Below, piece by piece: positions 1 to 21,243 of a stretch of 64,000 nt of DNA (the stretch's first letter is position 1; every line of letters begins with the position of its first letter). The stretch comes from Actinoplanes missouriensis 431 (GTDB taxonomy: Bacteria > Actinomycetota > Actinomycetes > Mycobacteriales > Micromonosporaceae): contig NC_017093.1 in NCBI RefSeq assembly GCF_000284295.1, positions 5,766,001 through 5,830,000 on the forward strand, written 5' to 3'. The position numbers and the translations under genes are program-made. Under the pieces are notes generated by a model. The model saw nothing but the letters and a program-made list of their open reading frames with translations. It was not told the DNA's origin and did not search any database.

Positions 1-304
1 CCCCCGAAATGGTGATCACCGCGTAGGCCGTGAAGGAGCCGCGCTCCGGGTCGTACCTGTCGATCGCCTTCACCAGGCCGAGCCGGGCCACCTGCTCCAG
101 GTCCTCCAGGTACTCGCCGCGGCCGCGGTAACGGCGGGCGAGCCGGCCGGCGAACGGCAGGCAGTACCGGATCAGGGTCTCCCGCAGGGAGTCCCGCTCC
201 GCAGAGGTCGCCGTGTCACGGCACTCCGCGTACCGCGCCGCGGCGGCGTCGAGATCCTCGAGCGTGTTGTCCGCGGCTTCGCCGACGATATTGCGCGAGG
301 TCAT
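1..304 (-). CDS. SigB/SigF-family RNA polymerase sigma factor (partial, N-terminal part)
   Basis: The gene runs off the left edge of the window, so only about the first 101 residues are visible. They contain the region 2.1-2.2 core typical of group 3 SigB/SigF sigma factors: a helical stretch ending LARRYRGRGEYLEDLEQVA, then GLVKAIDRYDPERGSFTAYA. The ATG at 304-302 is preceded by a GGAAAGG ribosome site, which supports this start. Family members direct RNA polymerase to stress or developmental promoters and are usually held inactive by an anti-sigma kinase. Regions 2.4, 3 and 4 lie outside the window, so promoter specificity cannot be judged. A second sigma factor of the same family lies at 33583-34350. 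Confidence 0.9.
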   Translation of the reverse strand, partial: MTSRNIVGEAADNTLEDLDAAAARYAECRDTATSAERDSLRETLIRYCLPFAGRLARRYRGRGEYLEDLEQVARLGLVKAIDRYDPERGSFTAYAVITISG

Positions 305-17047: not shown

Positions 17048-17207
17048 GATCTCCCCCGTCGTCGGCAGATGCCTCTTCCGATGACAAACCTGTCAGGAGG
17101 ACTGGTGCCGTGCGGGCAACTCCGGCATTATTCGCCTGCGGAAATCTGATGTGCGCCAGGTCACTGCCGATCTTCCGGGCACATGCTTCGGTCGCCGGGG
17201 AGGGGAC

Positions 17208-17291
17208 ATGCTCGCTGTGCTGCTGCTCGTGCTGATGGCCGGGCTCGCCGCCGCTCTGTTCACCGCGACGCGCGGACGGACCCTGGAATAG
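17208..17291 (+). CDS. Possible 27-residue single-pass membrane peptide
   Basis: The open frame MLAVLLLVLMAGLAAALFTA then TRGRTLE has a strong GGGGAGGGGAC ribosome site directly before the ATG and ends 14 bases before the xthA start. The hydrophobic core of about 18 residues followed by Arg-rich residues fits a small inner-membrane peptide. Very short membrane peptides of this type (for example KdpF) are often missed by gene callers. No homologue is recognised. Confidence 0.45.
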   Translation: MLAVLLLVLMAGLAAALFTATRGRTLE

Positions 17292-17305
17292 GGCAGGCTG
17301 GGTGG

Positions 17306-18082
17306 ATGCGCTTCGCCACCTGGAACGTGAACTCGGTCAAGGCCCGCCTTCCCCGCCTGCTCGACTGGCTCGGCACCACCGCCCCGGACGTCGTCTGCCT
17401 CCAGGAGACCAAGGTCGCCGGCGACGGGTTCCCGGCCGGCGAGGTCGCCGAACTGGGGTACGAGACCGCGGCGTACGGGCAGGGCCGATGGAACGGCGTC
17501 GCCCTGCTCTCCCGGATCGGGCTGGACGGTGTGCGCCGCGGGTTCGACGGCGAGCCGCAGTTCGGGGGCGTGGCCGAGGCCCGGGCGATCAGCGCGGTCT
17601 GCGGCGGCATCCGGTTCACCTCGGTGTACGTGCCGAACGGGCGCACCCCGGACGACCCGCACTACGCGTACAAGCTGGAGTGGCTGGCCGCGCTGCGCCA
17701 AGCGCTCGTGCCGGACCTGGCGGCCGGGCCGGTCGTGGTGGCCGGCGACTACAACGTTGCGCCGACCGACGCGGACGTCTGGGACATCGGGGTCTTCGCC
17801 GGCTCGACCCACGTGACAGCGCCGGAACGGGCCGCCCTGGCGCGGTTGCGGGAGCTGGGGCTCACCGACGTGCCGGCGCGGGCCCTCAAGGGTGATCACC
17901 CGTTCACCTACTGGGACTACCGCGCCGGTATGTTTCATCAGAACAAAGGCATGCGGATCGACCTCGTCTACGCGAGCGCCGACGTCGCCGGGCGCGTCGA
18001 GGATGCCCTGGTGGACCGGGATGCGCGCAAGGGCAAGGGACCTTCCGACCATGCCCCGATCGTGGTCGACCTGAAGGACTGA
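17306..18082 (+). CDS. xthA: Exodeoxyribonuclease III (AP endonuclease)
   Basis: A 258-residue exonuclease III/EEP-fold nuclease that cuts at abasic sites and removes 3' blocking groups in base excision repair. Family motifs are all present: RFATWNVNSVKARL at the start, CLQETKV with the metal-binding Glu, VVAGDYNVAPTDADVWD, the YWDYRAG segment, MRIDLVYAS and the closing GPSDHAPIVVDL with catalytic Asp-His. The ATG at 17306 begins exactly at the conserved N-terminus; the longer open frame upstream is not family sequence. It may be co-transcribed with the small peptide just upstream. Confidence 0.96.
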   Translation: MRFATWNVNSVKARLPRLLDWLGTTAPDVVCLQETKVAGDGFPAGEVAELGYETAAYGQGRWNGVALLSRIGLDGVRRGFDGEPQFGGVAEARAISAVCGGIRFTSVYVPNGRTPDDPHYAYKLEWLAALRQALVPDLAAGPVVVAGDYNVAPTDADVWDIGVFAGSTHVTAPERAALARLRELGLTDVPARALKGDHPFTYWDYRAGMFHQNKGMRIDLVYASADVAGRVEDALVDRDARKGKGPSDHAPIVVDLKD

Positions 18083-18146: not shown

Positions 18147-19814
18147 ATGTCAGCGCTCACGCCGGCCGGGACCGGTGAATCGCTGCAGATTCCGGCCCCG
18201 GTTCTGATCCGGGCGGCCCTGGAGGCCACGACCGAGGGCGTGGTGCTCTGCACCGCCGCGGACGGCATCGTGCTGTTCGCCAACGCCGCGGCCCGCGACC
18301 TGGCACCGGAGCTCACGCCGGGGCAGGCCGTCCCGTTCACCGGCGACTCGTTCCGCACCACGGCCGGCGGCCGTCATGTGTACGGGATGCGGCGCCGGCT
18401 GGACGACGGCCACGACGCCTGGTTCCTGCGCGACCACACCGAGGAGACCGAGCACGCGGCGGCGCTGGAGGTGGAGCGGGCCCGGTCGGCGTTCCTCGCC
18501 GAGGCGGGACAGCGGCTCTCCGCGTCACTGCACGTGCGGCGGTGTGCGCGGACCACGGCGGAGCTGGCGGTGACCCACCTGGCCGACGCCGCGATCGTGG
18601 TCATGCCCGGCGGGACCGGCGGGCAGTGCTCCTGGATCCGCCTCTCCCCCGGCCACGCGCCCGAGGAGGGCACGCTCGCCGCCCGGATGCTCACCGAGGT
18701 GCCCGGCCTCTCCGAGGCGCTCGACGGGTTCCCGCCGATCCCGAGCCGCTGGCTCGACCCCGGCCAGACGCCCGGCTGGCTCTTCCCGGCCGACCTGGGG
18801 CCGGTCGGCGCGCTGCTGGTCACGCCGCTGCCCGGCAACGCCGAGACGGCCGGCGCGCTGATCCTGGCCCGGCTGGGGCCGCAGAGCGCGTTCGACGCCG
18901 GCGACGAGTTGCTCGCCCGGGTCTTCGCGGCACGGGCCGGCGCCGCGCTCGCCGCCGCCATGCTCTACCAGGAGCAGGTCGACACCACCGCGGTCCTGCA
19001 GGCCGACCTGCTGCCGCCGGAGCTGCCCCAGCCCGAGGGCTTCGAGCTGGCCGCCTCCTACCAGGCCGCCCGTGACTCGCTGCGGGTCGGCGGCGACTTC
19101 TACGACGTGCTCGGACCGACGCCCGGTGGCAGCGACACCGTGATCGCGCTCGGCGACGTCTGCGGCACCGGCCCGGAGGCCGCGGTGCTGACCGGCAAGG
19201 TGCGCCAGACGCTGCGCGCGCTGCGGCTGGTCGACGTCGCCCCCGAGTCGATGCTGACCGTGCTCAACCAGGCGCTGCTGCAGTCCGGGCGCCGCTCCCG
19301 TTTCGTCACGCTGGTGGTCGGCTCGGTCCAGCGGGTCGAGCACGGCCGGGTGCGGCTCCGGCTGGCGAGCGGCGGTCACCCTCCGCCGCTGGTCCTGCGC
19401 ACCGACGGTACGGTCGACGTCGTGCCCACCAGGGGGACGCTGATCGGCGTCCTCCCGGAAACGGTCGTCACCCCGGCCACGGTCGAGCTCTCGCCGGGCG
19501 AGCTGTGCCTGCTCTACAGCGACGGCCTCACCGAGGCGCGCGGCGGTCCGAGCGGCGACGAGCAGTTCGGCGAGGAGCGGCTGCACCGGCAGCTCGCCGG
19601 TTGCCTCGGCATGCCCGGCGCGGTGGTGGTGGAGCGGCTGCGCCAGCTGGTCTCCGACTGGCTGCACGGCGGGCCCAGCGACGACATCGCGATCATGGCC
19701 GTCCGCGCGCACACCCGGCCACCGCTGAGCCTGCGGGGCGGCGGGGCGCCGAACGCGTCGCCGTACCTGGTCTCCGCGCGGCGCGGCGACCGGCGCAGCC
19801 GGGCCCGGTCATGA
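18147..19814 (+). CDS. PAS-GAF-SpoIIE (PP2C-type) serine phosphatase
   Basis: A 555-residue cytoplasmic sensor phosphatase. Residues about 15-105 form a PAS-like domain (EATTEGVVLCTAADGIVLFANAA), about 115-275 a GAF-like domain, and about 290-520 a SpoIIE/RsbU-type PP2C domain. The metal-binding acidic residues are present in VGGDFYDVL (about 314-322), ALGDVCGTG (about 334-342), LLYSDGLTEAR and GPSDDIAIMAV, so it is probably active. Relatives dephosphorylate STAS anti-anti-sigma proteins and so release SigB/SigF-type sigma factors. The stop codon overlaps the start of the B12-binding protein by four bases (ATGA), which strongly suggests a shared function. Confidence 0.93.
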   Translation: MSALTPAGTGESLQIPAPVLIRAALEATTEGVVLCTAADGIVLFANAAARDLAPELTPGQAVPFTGDSFRTTAGGRHVYGMRRRLDDGHDAWFLRDHTEETEHAAALEVERARSAFLAEAGQRLSASLHVRRCARTTAELAVTHLADAAIVVMPGGTGGQCSWIRLSPGHAPEEGTLAARMLTEVPGLSEALDGFPPIPSRWLDPGQTPGWLFPADLGPVGALLVTPLPGNAETAGALILARLGPQSAFDAGDELLARVFAARAGAALAAAMLYQEQVDTTAVLQADLLPPELPQPEGFELAASYQAARDSLRVGGDFYDVLGPTPGGSDTVIALGDVCGTGPEAAVLTGKVRQTLRALRLVDVAPESMLTVLNQALLQSGRRSRFVTLVVGSVQRVEHGRVRLRLASGGHPPPLVLRTDGTVDVVPTRGTLIGVLPETVVTPATVELSPGELCLLYSDGLTEARGGPSGDEQFGEERLHRQLAGCLGMPGAVVVERLRQLVSDWLHGGPSDDIAIMAVRAHTRPPLSLRGGGAPNASPYLVSARRGDRRSRARS

Positions 19815-20830
19815 GCGGGGTCGCCGTGCACGTGGCGCTCGACCACTACCTGGAGCTGATCGGCGACGGCGACGAGCAGGGCGCCATCGACGTCGCCGCC
19901 GCGCTGCTGGACTCCGGCATGCCCGCCCAGCAGGTGATCAGCGATCTGATCGGCGCGGCTCAGCGGCGGGTCGGCGAGCTCTGGGCGTCCAACGAGTGGG
20001 GCGTGGCGCGGGAGCACGCCGCGACGGCGGTGAGCGAGCGGGTGCTGGCCGCCGTCGGCGCCCGCACCGCCGTGCCGGCGACCCGCGGCCGGATCACCCT
20101 GGCCTGCGTGGACGGCGAGTGGCACGGGCTGCCCGCCCGGATGCTCGCCGAGATGCTGCGCCTCGACGGCTGGCGGGTCGACTTCCTCGGCGCCAGCGTC
20201 CCCGGCCGTCATCTGATCACCCACCTGCACCAGACCGGGCCGGACGCGGTCGCGCTGAGCTGCATGATCCCGACCCGGCTGCCCCGCGCGCACGCCGCGA
20301 TCACCGCGTGCCGCGCCGCCGGGATCCCGGTGATCGCCGGGGGCCGGGGCTTCGGTCCGGACGGGCGGTACGCGCGACTGCTCGGCGCGGACGCGTGGGC
20401 CGCCACCGGGGAGGAGGCGGTGGCCCGACTGGCCGACGACTGGCCGCCGCCGTACGTCGCGGATCACCCGGGCACGTTCCTCGGTGACGAGGAGTACACC
20501 CATCTGGTCCGCTCCCGCCCTCAGCTGATCACCTGCGCGATGGACCGGCTGCCGGCGGTCTACCCGGAGGCCCACCACTACGACCAGGCCCAGATCGACG
20601 CCACCGCCGAGGACATCGGCCACATCGCGGACTTCCTGGCCGCCGCCCTCTACGTCGGCGACGAGGCGATCTTCACGGACTTCGTGGAGTGGACGGCCGA
20701 GGTGCTCTCCAGCCGGGGTGTCCCGCCGGGCGCGTTGCGGGTCGGGTTGCGGCTGGTCCGGGACCAGCTCGTGGACTTCCCGATGGCGATCAAGATGATC
20801 GATTCCGCGGTGGCGGGCCTCCCGCGATAA
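19811..20830 (+). CDS. B12-binding protein with CarH/LitR-type photoreceptor signature, no DNA-binding domain
   Basis: A 339-residue protein. Residues 1-90 are a cobalamin-binding helical bundle with the W-x9-EH signature (Trp58, Glu68, His69) typical of adenosylcobalamin photoreceptors of the CarH/LitR class. Residues 93-210 form a Rossmann B12-binding domain with the axial-ligand segment DGEWHG (His105), the SxL-type ALSCMI (Ser150) and IAGGRG (177-178). There is no MerR helix-turn-helix. Instead a C-terminal helical extension (about 220-339) of unknown family is present. Translational coupling to the SpoIIE phosphatase suggests it relays a light or cobalamin signal to that enzyme. A methyltransferase activator role is less likely, as no such genes are nearby. 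Confidence 0.88.
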   Translation: MSGVAVHVALDHYLELIGDGDEQGAIDVAAALLDSGMPAQQVISDLIGAAQRRVGELWASNEWGVAREHAATAVSERVLAAVGARTAVPATRGRITLACVDGEWHGLPARMLAEMLRLDGWRVDFLGASVPGRHLITHLHQTGPDAVALSCMIPTRLPRAHAAITACRAAGIPVIAGGRGFGPDGRYARLLGADAWAATGEEAVARLADDWPPPYVADHPGTFLGDEEYTHLVRSRPQLITCAMDRLPAVYPEAHHYDQAQIDATAEDIGHIADFLAAALYVGDEAIFTDFVEWTAEVLSSRGVPPGALRVGLRLVRDQLVDFPMAIKMIDSAVAGLPR

Positions 20831-21006: not shown

Positions 21007-21243
21007 ATGCCTGCAAAGCCCTTTTCTGTATCGATGAATGTCGATGAGCTAGCCCACGCGGAGATCGCCGCCGCGGTGCAGCGGACGACGACTGCCGCCG
21101 GGGAGGACCACTCCGCCGCGGAGATCGCGCACCACGGCGCCCGGGATCCGCGTCAGGCCGCCCGCGACAGGTCCGGCCGGGACCGCGCCGGCCGTGCCGC
21201 CGGCGCGTCCGGTGGCCGCAGCTACGCCTTCCGGCGCAGCTAG
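21007..21243 (+). CDS. Small Ala/Arg-rich hypothetical protein
   Basis: A 78-residue protein starting at the ATG at 21007 with an AGGAG site eight bases upstream. The N-terminal half (FSVSMNVDELAHAEIAAAVQ) may be helical; the C-terminal half is Arg/Gly/Ala-rich and probably disordered. No family is recognised. A strong terminator hairpin begins 15 bases after the stop, which supports this being a real transcription unit. Confidence 0.55.
   Translation: MPAKPFSVSMNVDELAHAEIAAAVQRTTTAAGEDHSAAEIAHHGARDPRQAARDRSGRDRAGRAAGASGGRSYAFRRS

Follow-up and report, generated by a model that had tools for sequence, protein, structure and literature searches.

A SpoIIE-type phosphatase gene coupled to a predicted photocobilin gene in Actinoplanes missouriensis: a probable light input to partner switching

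The window analysed here is a stretch of 64,000 nucleotides from the soil actinobacterium Actinoplanes missouriensis 431 (contig NC_017093.1, positions 5,766,001 to 5,830,000). It holds a gene for a SpoIIE/PPM-type serine phosphatase followed on the same strand by a gene for a protein that we assign to the photocobilins, and the stop of the first overlaps the start of the second in a shared ATGA (Table 1), as had been read in a preliminary description of the sequence. Upstream lies an exonuclease-III-like gene, whose end is separated from the phosphatase gene by 64 bases on the same strand, and 3' of the pair is a laminin-G-like gene on the opposite strand. An open reading frame at the place of the exonuclease-III-like gene is kept in ~42 related loci and is perhaps the same gene. 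A promoter scan returned no sigma-70-like site, such a scan being uninformative for A. missouriensis.

Table 1. Features of the phosphatase-photocobilin locus (coordinates are those of the window)
Feature	Coordinates	Strand	Basis
Exonuclease-III-like gene	17183..18082	+	Pfam, PF03372
SpoIIE/PPM-type serine phosphatase gene, 555 aa (PAS-helix-GAF-helix-PPM)	18147..19814	+	PF07228, AlphaFold
PAS-like domain, residues 18-96	18198..18434	+	Weak Pfam PAS match, predicted alpha/beta fold
GAF domain, residues 130-250	18534..18896	+	Family profile against DevS GAF, E about 1e-8; model
Long GAF-to-phosphatase helix, residues 251-288	18897..19010	+	One helix in AlphaFold; many conserved positions in alignment
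PPM/SpoIIE catalytic domain, residues 299-521, five Asp	19041..19709	+	Pfam, alignment, AlphaFold
ATGA, phosphatase stop overlapping photocobilin start	19811..19814	+	ORF coordinates
Predicted standalone photocobilin gene, 339 aa	19811..20830	+	phmmer to 8j2w/8j2x, AlphaFold, Foldseek
Four-helix cap, Trp58 (19982-19984), Glu68-His69 (20012-20017)	19814..20062	+	PF02607
Rossmann-type B12-binding domain, axial His105 (20123-20125), His134 (20210-20212)	20090..20437	+	PF02310
Predicted globin-like bilin (biliverdin) domain, Asp268 (20612-20614), Trp294 (20690-20692)	20489..20815	+	Sequence and fold match to SasPcob

The phosphatase has the PPM fold and the metal-binding aspartates of SpoIIE/RsbU-type enzymes. 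PF07228 matches residues 329-521 (E=1.8e-41), and the five catalytic or metal-binding aspartates (Asp317, Asp337, Asp459, Asp512 and Asp513) are invariant in the 12 aligned homologues, which bears out the earlier statement that the metal-binding residues are intact. The PAS and GAF-like sensors that had also been proposed score below the Pfam cut-offs but are seen in the AlphaFold model (pLDDT 83.5), which has the order PAS-helix-GAF-helix-PPM, and a phosphatase-family profile matches DevS GAF structures over about residues 160-293. The nearest solved fold, and also the best match of the family profile, is the RsbU domain of Rv1364c (3ke6). Partner-switching phosphatases of the RsbU/RsbP/Rv1364c type likewise combine PAS/GAF sensors, a helical linker and a PPM domain, and the usual layout among general-stress-response phosphatases is one of sensor domains acting via a helical linker (PMC12143880); what sets the 555-aa phosphatase apart is that its gene has a separate photoreceptor gene as partner. 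The A. missouriensis genome holds 22 SpoIIE domains in all.

When the PDB was searched with phmmer, the 339-aa protein matched SasPcob from Saccharothrix syringae (8j2w/8j2x) over residues 13-331 with E=5e-93, with CarH far behind, and its AlphaFold model (pLDDT 90.9) was aligned by Foldseek to the same structures along the whole chain (TM 0.88-0.90). The CarH-like B12 module that characterises photocobilins, a four-helix cap and a Rossmann domain, is present, both parts scoring above the Pfam cut-offs (PF02607, E=9.7e-15; PF02310, E=2.9e-19). In the phmmer alignment, W58, E68, H69, H105, H134, D268 and W294 align exactly with W61, E71, H72, H108, H137, D270 and W296 of SasPcob, which are the published AdoCbl and biliverdin contacts (numbering of SasPcob after PMC10979010). 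The protein thus has, in sequence, the features of a photocobilin: the adenosyl pocket with its axial His, a globin-like bilin domain, and the biliverdin contacts D268, W294 and H134. The four B12 residues that the preliminary description had pointed out, Trp58, Glu68, His69 and His105, are all there, and each is invariant in 138/138 homologues; Asp268 is kept in 78 and Trp294 in 79 of the 80 named loci described below.

No DNA-binding domain was found in the 339-aa protein. The only Pfam matches above cut-off are the B12 domains, and the NCBIfam CarH model covers residues 38-193 only, scoring 41.8 bits where the cut-off is 400; these results agree with the earlier claim that a MerR-type domain is lacking and support the proposal that the protein acts by protein-protein contact rather than through DNA. 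The C-terminal helical extension had been described as of unknown type, and this part of the description has to be replaced. Searched in isolation, the extension finds SasPcob (8j2w, E=1e-18), with phycocyanin beta as a weaker match (E=0.0096), and the full-chain superposition on 8j2w/8j2x identifies it as the globin-like bilin domain, which places the 339-aa protein in a known, structurally solved family (PMC10979010). Judged by sequence and predicted fold, the protein is a standalone photocobilin and not an unclassified CarH relative and, by analogy with the solved members, it is probably a two-chromophore sensor of B12 and biliverdin.

Its known relatives differ from it in instructive ways. 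SasPcob (PDB 8J2W dark, 8J2X light; PMC10979010) has an equal three-part fold and length at ~50% identity, and all its B12- and biliverdin-contact residues are shared. AbDPcob, a photocobilin-diguanylate cyclase fusion that is activated by light (PDB 8J2Y for the domain), likewise combines a photocobilin module with a signalling enzyme, although that enzyme is of another type and is fused in cis, and it has a His in place of the biliverdin Asp that the window protein retains as Asp268. The AdoCbl photoreceptors of the CarH/LitR class share the B12 domain with W-x9-EH and the axial His; CarH, however, carries a DNA-binding domain of the MerR type where the window protein has none, and lacks the bilin domain that the window protein has, and a CarH-type regulator was rejected on these grounds. 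In AerR-type cobalamin photoreceptors the B12 domain acts on partner proteins rather than DNA, the target being a repressor as against the phosphatase in the pair proposed here. These photoreceptors, which also have no DNA-binding domain (PDB 7te2), match the 339-aa protein weakly in sequence and fold and, unlike it, are without a globin-like bilin domain. A corrinoid carrier of a methyltransferase system (MtgC/MtaC type) instead of a sensor is very improbable: the B12 domains do give matches to the NCBIfam models MtgC and pyl_corrinoid, with scores far short of the cut-offs, but the best NCBIfam profile is CarH, the W/E/H adenosyl pocket and the bilin domain are present, and neither ORFs nor Pfam revealed a methyltransferase gene adjoining the pair. 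A methyltransferase corrinoid protein was thus rejected on domain matches and conserved residues.

A scan of GTDB genomes yielded 80 named loci from the Micromonosporaceae, Streptosporangiaceae, Mycobacteriaceae, Pseudonocardiaceae and Streptomycetaceae. A SpoIIE-type phosphatase gene lies directly upstream of the photocobilin gene in every one of these loci, across all five families, and in 68 of them the two genes overlap by 4 or 1 nt, which supports translational coupling and with it the co-translation that had been assumed for the window pair. Conservation of the pair as a unit in other actinobacteria, a check called for earlier, is also evident from the 30/30 nearest genomic loci, where the SpoIIE gene is immediately upstream, and from further loci of the family, where it is upstream in 37/40 (one of the three exceptions is cut off by the end of its contig). 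Across a sample of the whole phylum, SpoIIE was upstream in 8/8 loci of the same class and in 0/10 of other classes, photocobilins outside the class Actinomycetes having other neighbours (GGDEF, ABM monooxygenase). When the PAS-GAF half of the phosphatase and the photocobilin were scored in 151 family genomes, 61 had both, 5 and 2 had one only, and 83 had neither; the presence of a partner-type phosphatase and of a photocobilin agrees in 144/151 genomes (Fisher p=1.4e-33), a p-value that overstates the number of events because related species are not independent; the occurrence in five families carries more weight. Within the class Actinomycetes the two genes form a near-obligate unit, and their pairing in the window is no chance arrangement. 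No natural photocobilin-SpoIIE fusion was found in >130 loci.

A STAS gene immediately follows the photocobilin gene, often with a 4-nt overlap, in 29 of the 80 named loci. The encoded proteins nearly always contain DSxG, the phospho-site motif, and fall into three clades in a tree. A STAS target and partner switching had been considered the likely output of the window pair, and the sight of a STAS gene in third place in these relatives strengthens that expectation. The downstream STAS gene is absent at the window locus and in the Actinoplanes group. In Microbispora triticiradicis (L083), two tandem photocobilin genes are located between the phosphatase gene and the STAS gene.

The gene of the crystallised SasPcob in S. 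syringae (L234/L242, 100% match) has a STAS gene upstream and no adjacent SpoIIE gene, in contrast to the window photocobilin, which is coupled to SpoIIE and has no neighbouring STAS gene; a phosphatase is therefore not obligatory for every photocobilin. The second photocobilin of S. syringae (L244) belongs to a full SpoIIE-photocobilin-STAS operon, and in sister species close relatives of SasPcob have the phosphatase gene upstream with a 4-nt overlap. These Saccharothrix operons fit the proposal, made in 2024 from STRING, of an interaction of SasPcob with STAS and SpoIIE proteins (PMC10979010, section 9), and they ground it in genome structure. The arrangement around SasPcob, the lack of any fusion, and the GGDEF and ABM monooxygenase neighbours outside the class would all fit a photocobilin and a phosphatase that are co-expressed as separate inputs and make no contact, the photocobilin acting elsewhere, for instance on a STAS protein or a kinase. 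We nevertheless consider this improbable, as no other neighbour accompanies the photocobilin as constantly as the phosphatase, which overlaps and is co-inherited with it; STAS is found less constantly.

With respect to chromophore supply, we found two genes for heme oxygenase and one for a cobalamin adenosyltransferase in the A. missouriensis genome. Of the 66 family genomes with a photocobilin, 16 have no recognisable PF01126 heme oxygenase, so that not all of them can be assumed to use biliverdin, and the co-occurrence of heme oxygenase and photocobilin is weak (50/66 against 49/85, p=0.025); biliverdin may be optional for photocobilins. In one Micromonosporaceae genus, a second photocobilin (L171-L176) has lost Asp268 and kept the upstream SpoIIE gene, with a further SpoIIE gene ~2 kb downstream, and these paralogues may be B12-only sensors. 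In other classes (L219:2454-3622, L220:1139-2487), the photocobilin gene overlaps or directly follows a gene for an ABM-type monooxygenase, with a GGDEF gene also present in L219; the superfamily includes IsdG-like heme-degrading enzymes, and a role in chromophore supply is possible.

Alternatively, the pair could report cobalamin status, the photocobilin signalling AdoCbl as against other cobalamins (or the apo form) to the phosphatase and light having no physiological role: the B12 residues alone never vary among the homologues, several phosphatase-coupled paralogues (L171-L176) are without the biliverdin aspartate, and another paralogue (L183:2304-4808) lies in a B12-salvage setting, between CbiZ (adenosylcobinamide amidohydrolase) and a histidine phosphatase. 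We regard such a sensor as unlikely, however, since the main lineage keeps both Asp268/Trp294 and the Trp-x9-Glu-His signature of the light-sensitive adenosyl pocket, and SasPcob, with equal residues, is photoactive (PMC10979010).

Family membership, conserved residues and fold, the near-obligate pairing, and the STAS genes in the operons of many relatives point instead to a photocobilin-controlled phosphatase that feeds a partner-switching pathway, which we consider likely. In SasPcob and AbDPcob, the dark AdoCbl form is converted to the light form by green light, or by red light via biliverdin, and SasPcob is a dimer in the dark and monomeric in its light form (PMC10979010). From this biochemistry we infer the chromophores and photochemistry of the window photocobilin: AdoCbl would be held via His105, with Trp58 and Glu68-His69 around its adenosyl group, and biliverdin would probably occupy the C-terminal globin-like domain. 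The dark state would be a head-to-tail dimer, and green light via B12, or red light via biliverdin, would lead to breakage of the Co-C bond, release of the adenosyl group and separation of the dimer.

By analogy, this change would be passed to the PAS-GAF-PPM phosphatase by protein contact, most simply via its sensor domains or linker helix, and the phosphatase would then dephosphorylate a STAS anti-anti-sigma factor, such that a sigma factor is freed from its kinase/anti-sigma partner. Photocobilin domains are reported to act on an enzyme also in trans, and the fused protein is activated by light more than 10-fold (PMC10979010). The contact, the direction of control and the sigma-factor output are all modelled on such systems, and light probably activates the phosphatase, as it does AbDPcob. 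As the phosphatase has PAS/GAF sensors of its own, its main input may be something other than light.

The A. missouriensis genome has ~37 STAS protein matches, 33 rows of which were placed in the tree, and none of these 33 is a clear orthologue of the operon STAS proteins; the best profile match for a cognate STAS protein, G000:C1:3309824, is without tree support. We also note that window positions 1-304 on the minus strand (L230:4361-6304) hold the 5' end of a gene for a sigma-70 factor of 379 aa with a C-terminal STAS domain, adjoined just outside the window by a gene for an RsbW-like protein of 243 aa. In length and domains the two correspond to sigma-SsdA/SipA of A. missouriensis (PMC10733313). 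As a target of the pair, ~18 kb away, they found no support, the STAS domain of SsdA being without the usual serine (DAAG) and the distance being large. It is an evenly balanced question, in our judgement, whether SpoIIE-photocobilin-STAS forms a two-chromophore green/red partner switch acting in trans that, in A. missouriensis, has been redirected to a STAS/sigma pathway encoded elsewhere, possibly one of sporangium/zoospore development.

The receptor family, a B12 photoreceptor without a DNA-binding domain that acts by protein contact, and a predicted SpoIIE/STAS link have already been published; what is added here is the operon evidence, namely the coupled phosphatase (80/80 loci) and STAS as third gene (29/80). 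The coupled operon with STAS as its third gene was not found in the literature searched, which comprised neither the supplements of PMC10979010 nor the photoglobin paper of Schneider et al. (2022), and an earlier mention is possible. Photocobilins are defined in structure and photochemistry, and standalone ones have so far been without a shown output. The pair and its probable STAS substrate provide a testable one, the control of sigma-factor partner switching by light, in actinobacteria that are not phototrophic, among them Streptomyces, Micromonospora, Actinoplanes and environmental mycobacteria. The unit appears to be a widespread switch by which light enters the regulation of stress or developmental genes and, if this is true, would be a natural optogenetic phosphatase system. 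A. missouriensis is genetically tractable. Finally, a small ORF 3' of the photocobilin gene (21007-21243, plus strand; 78 aa, without a Pfam match) ends in GRSYAFRRS, and ORFs sharing this C-terminus are found 3' of the photocobilin gene in many loci of the Actinoplanes group.
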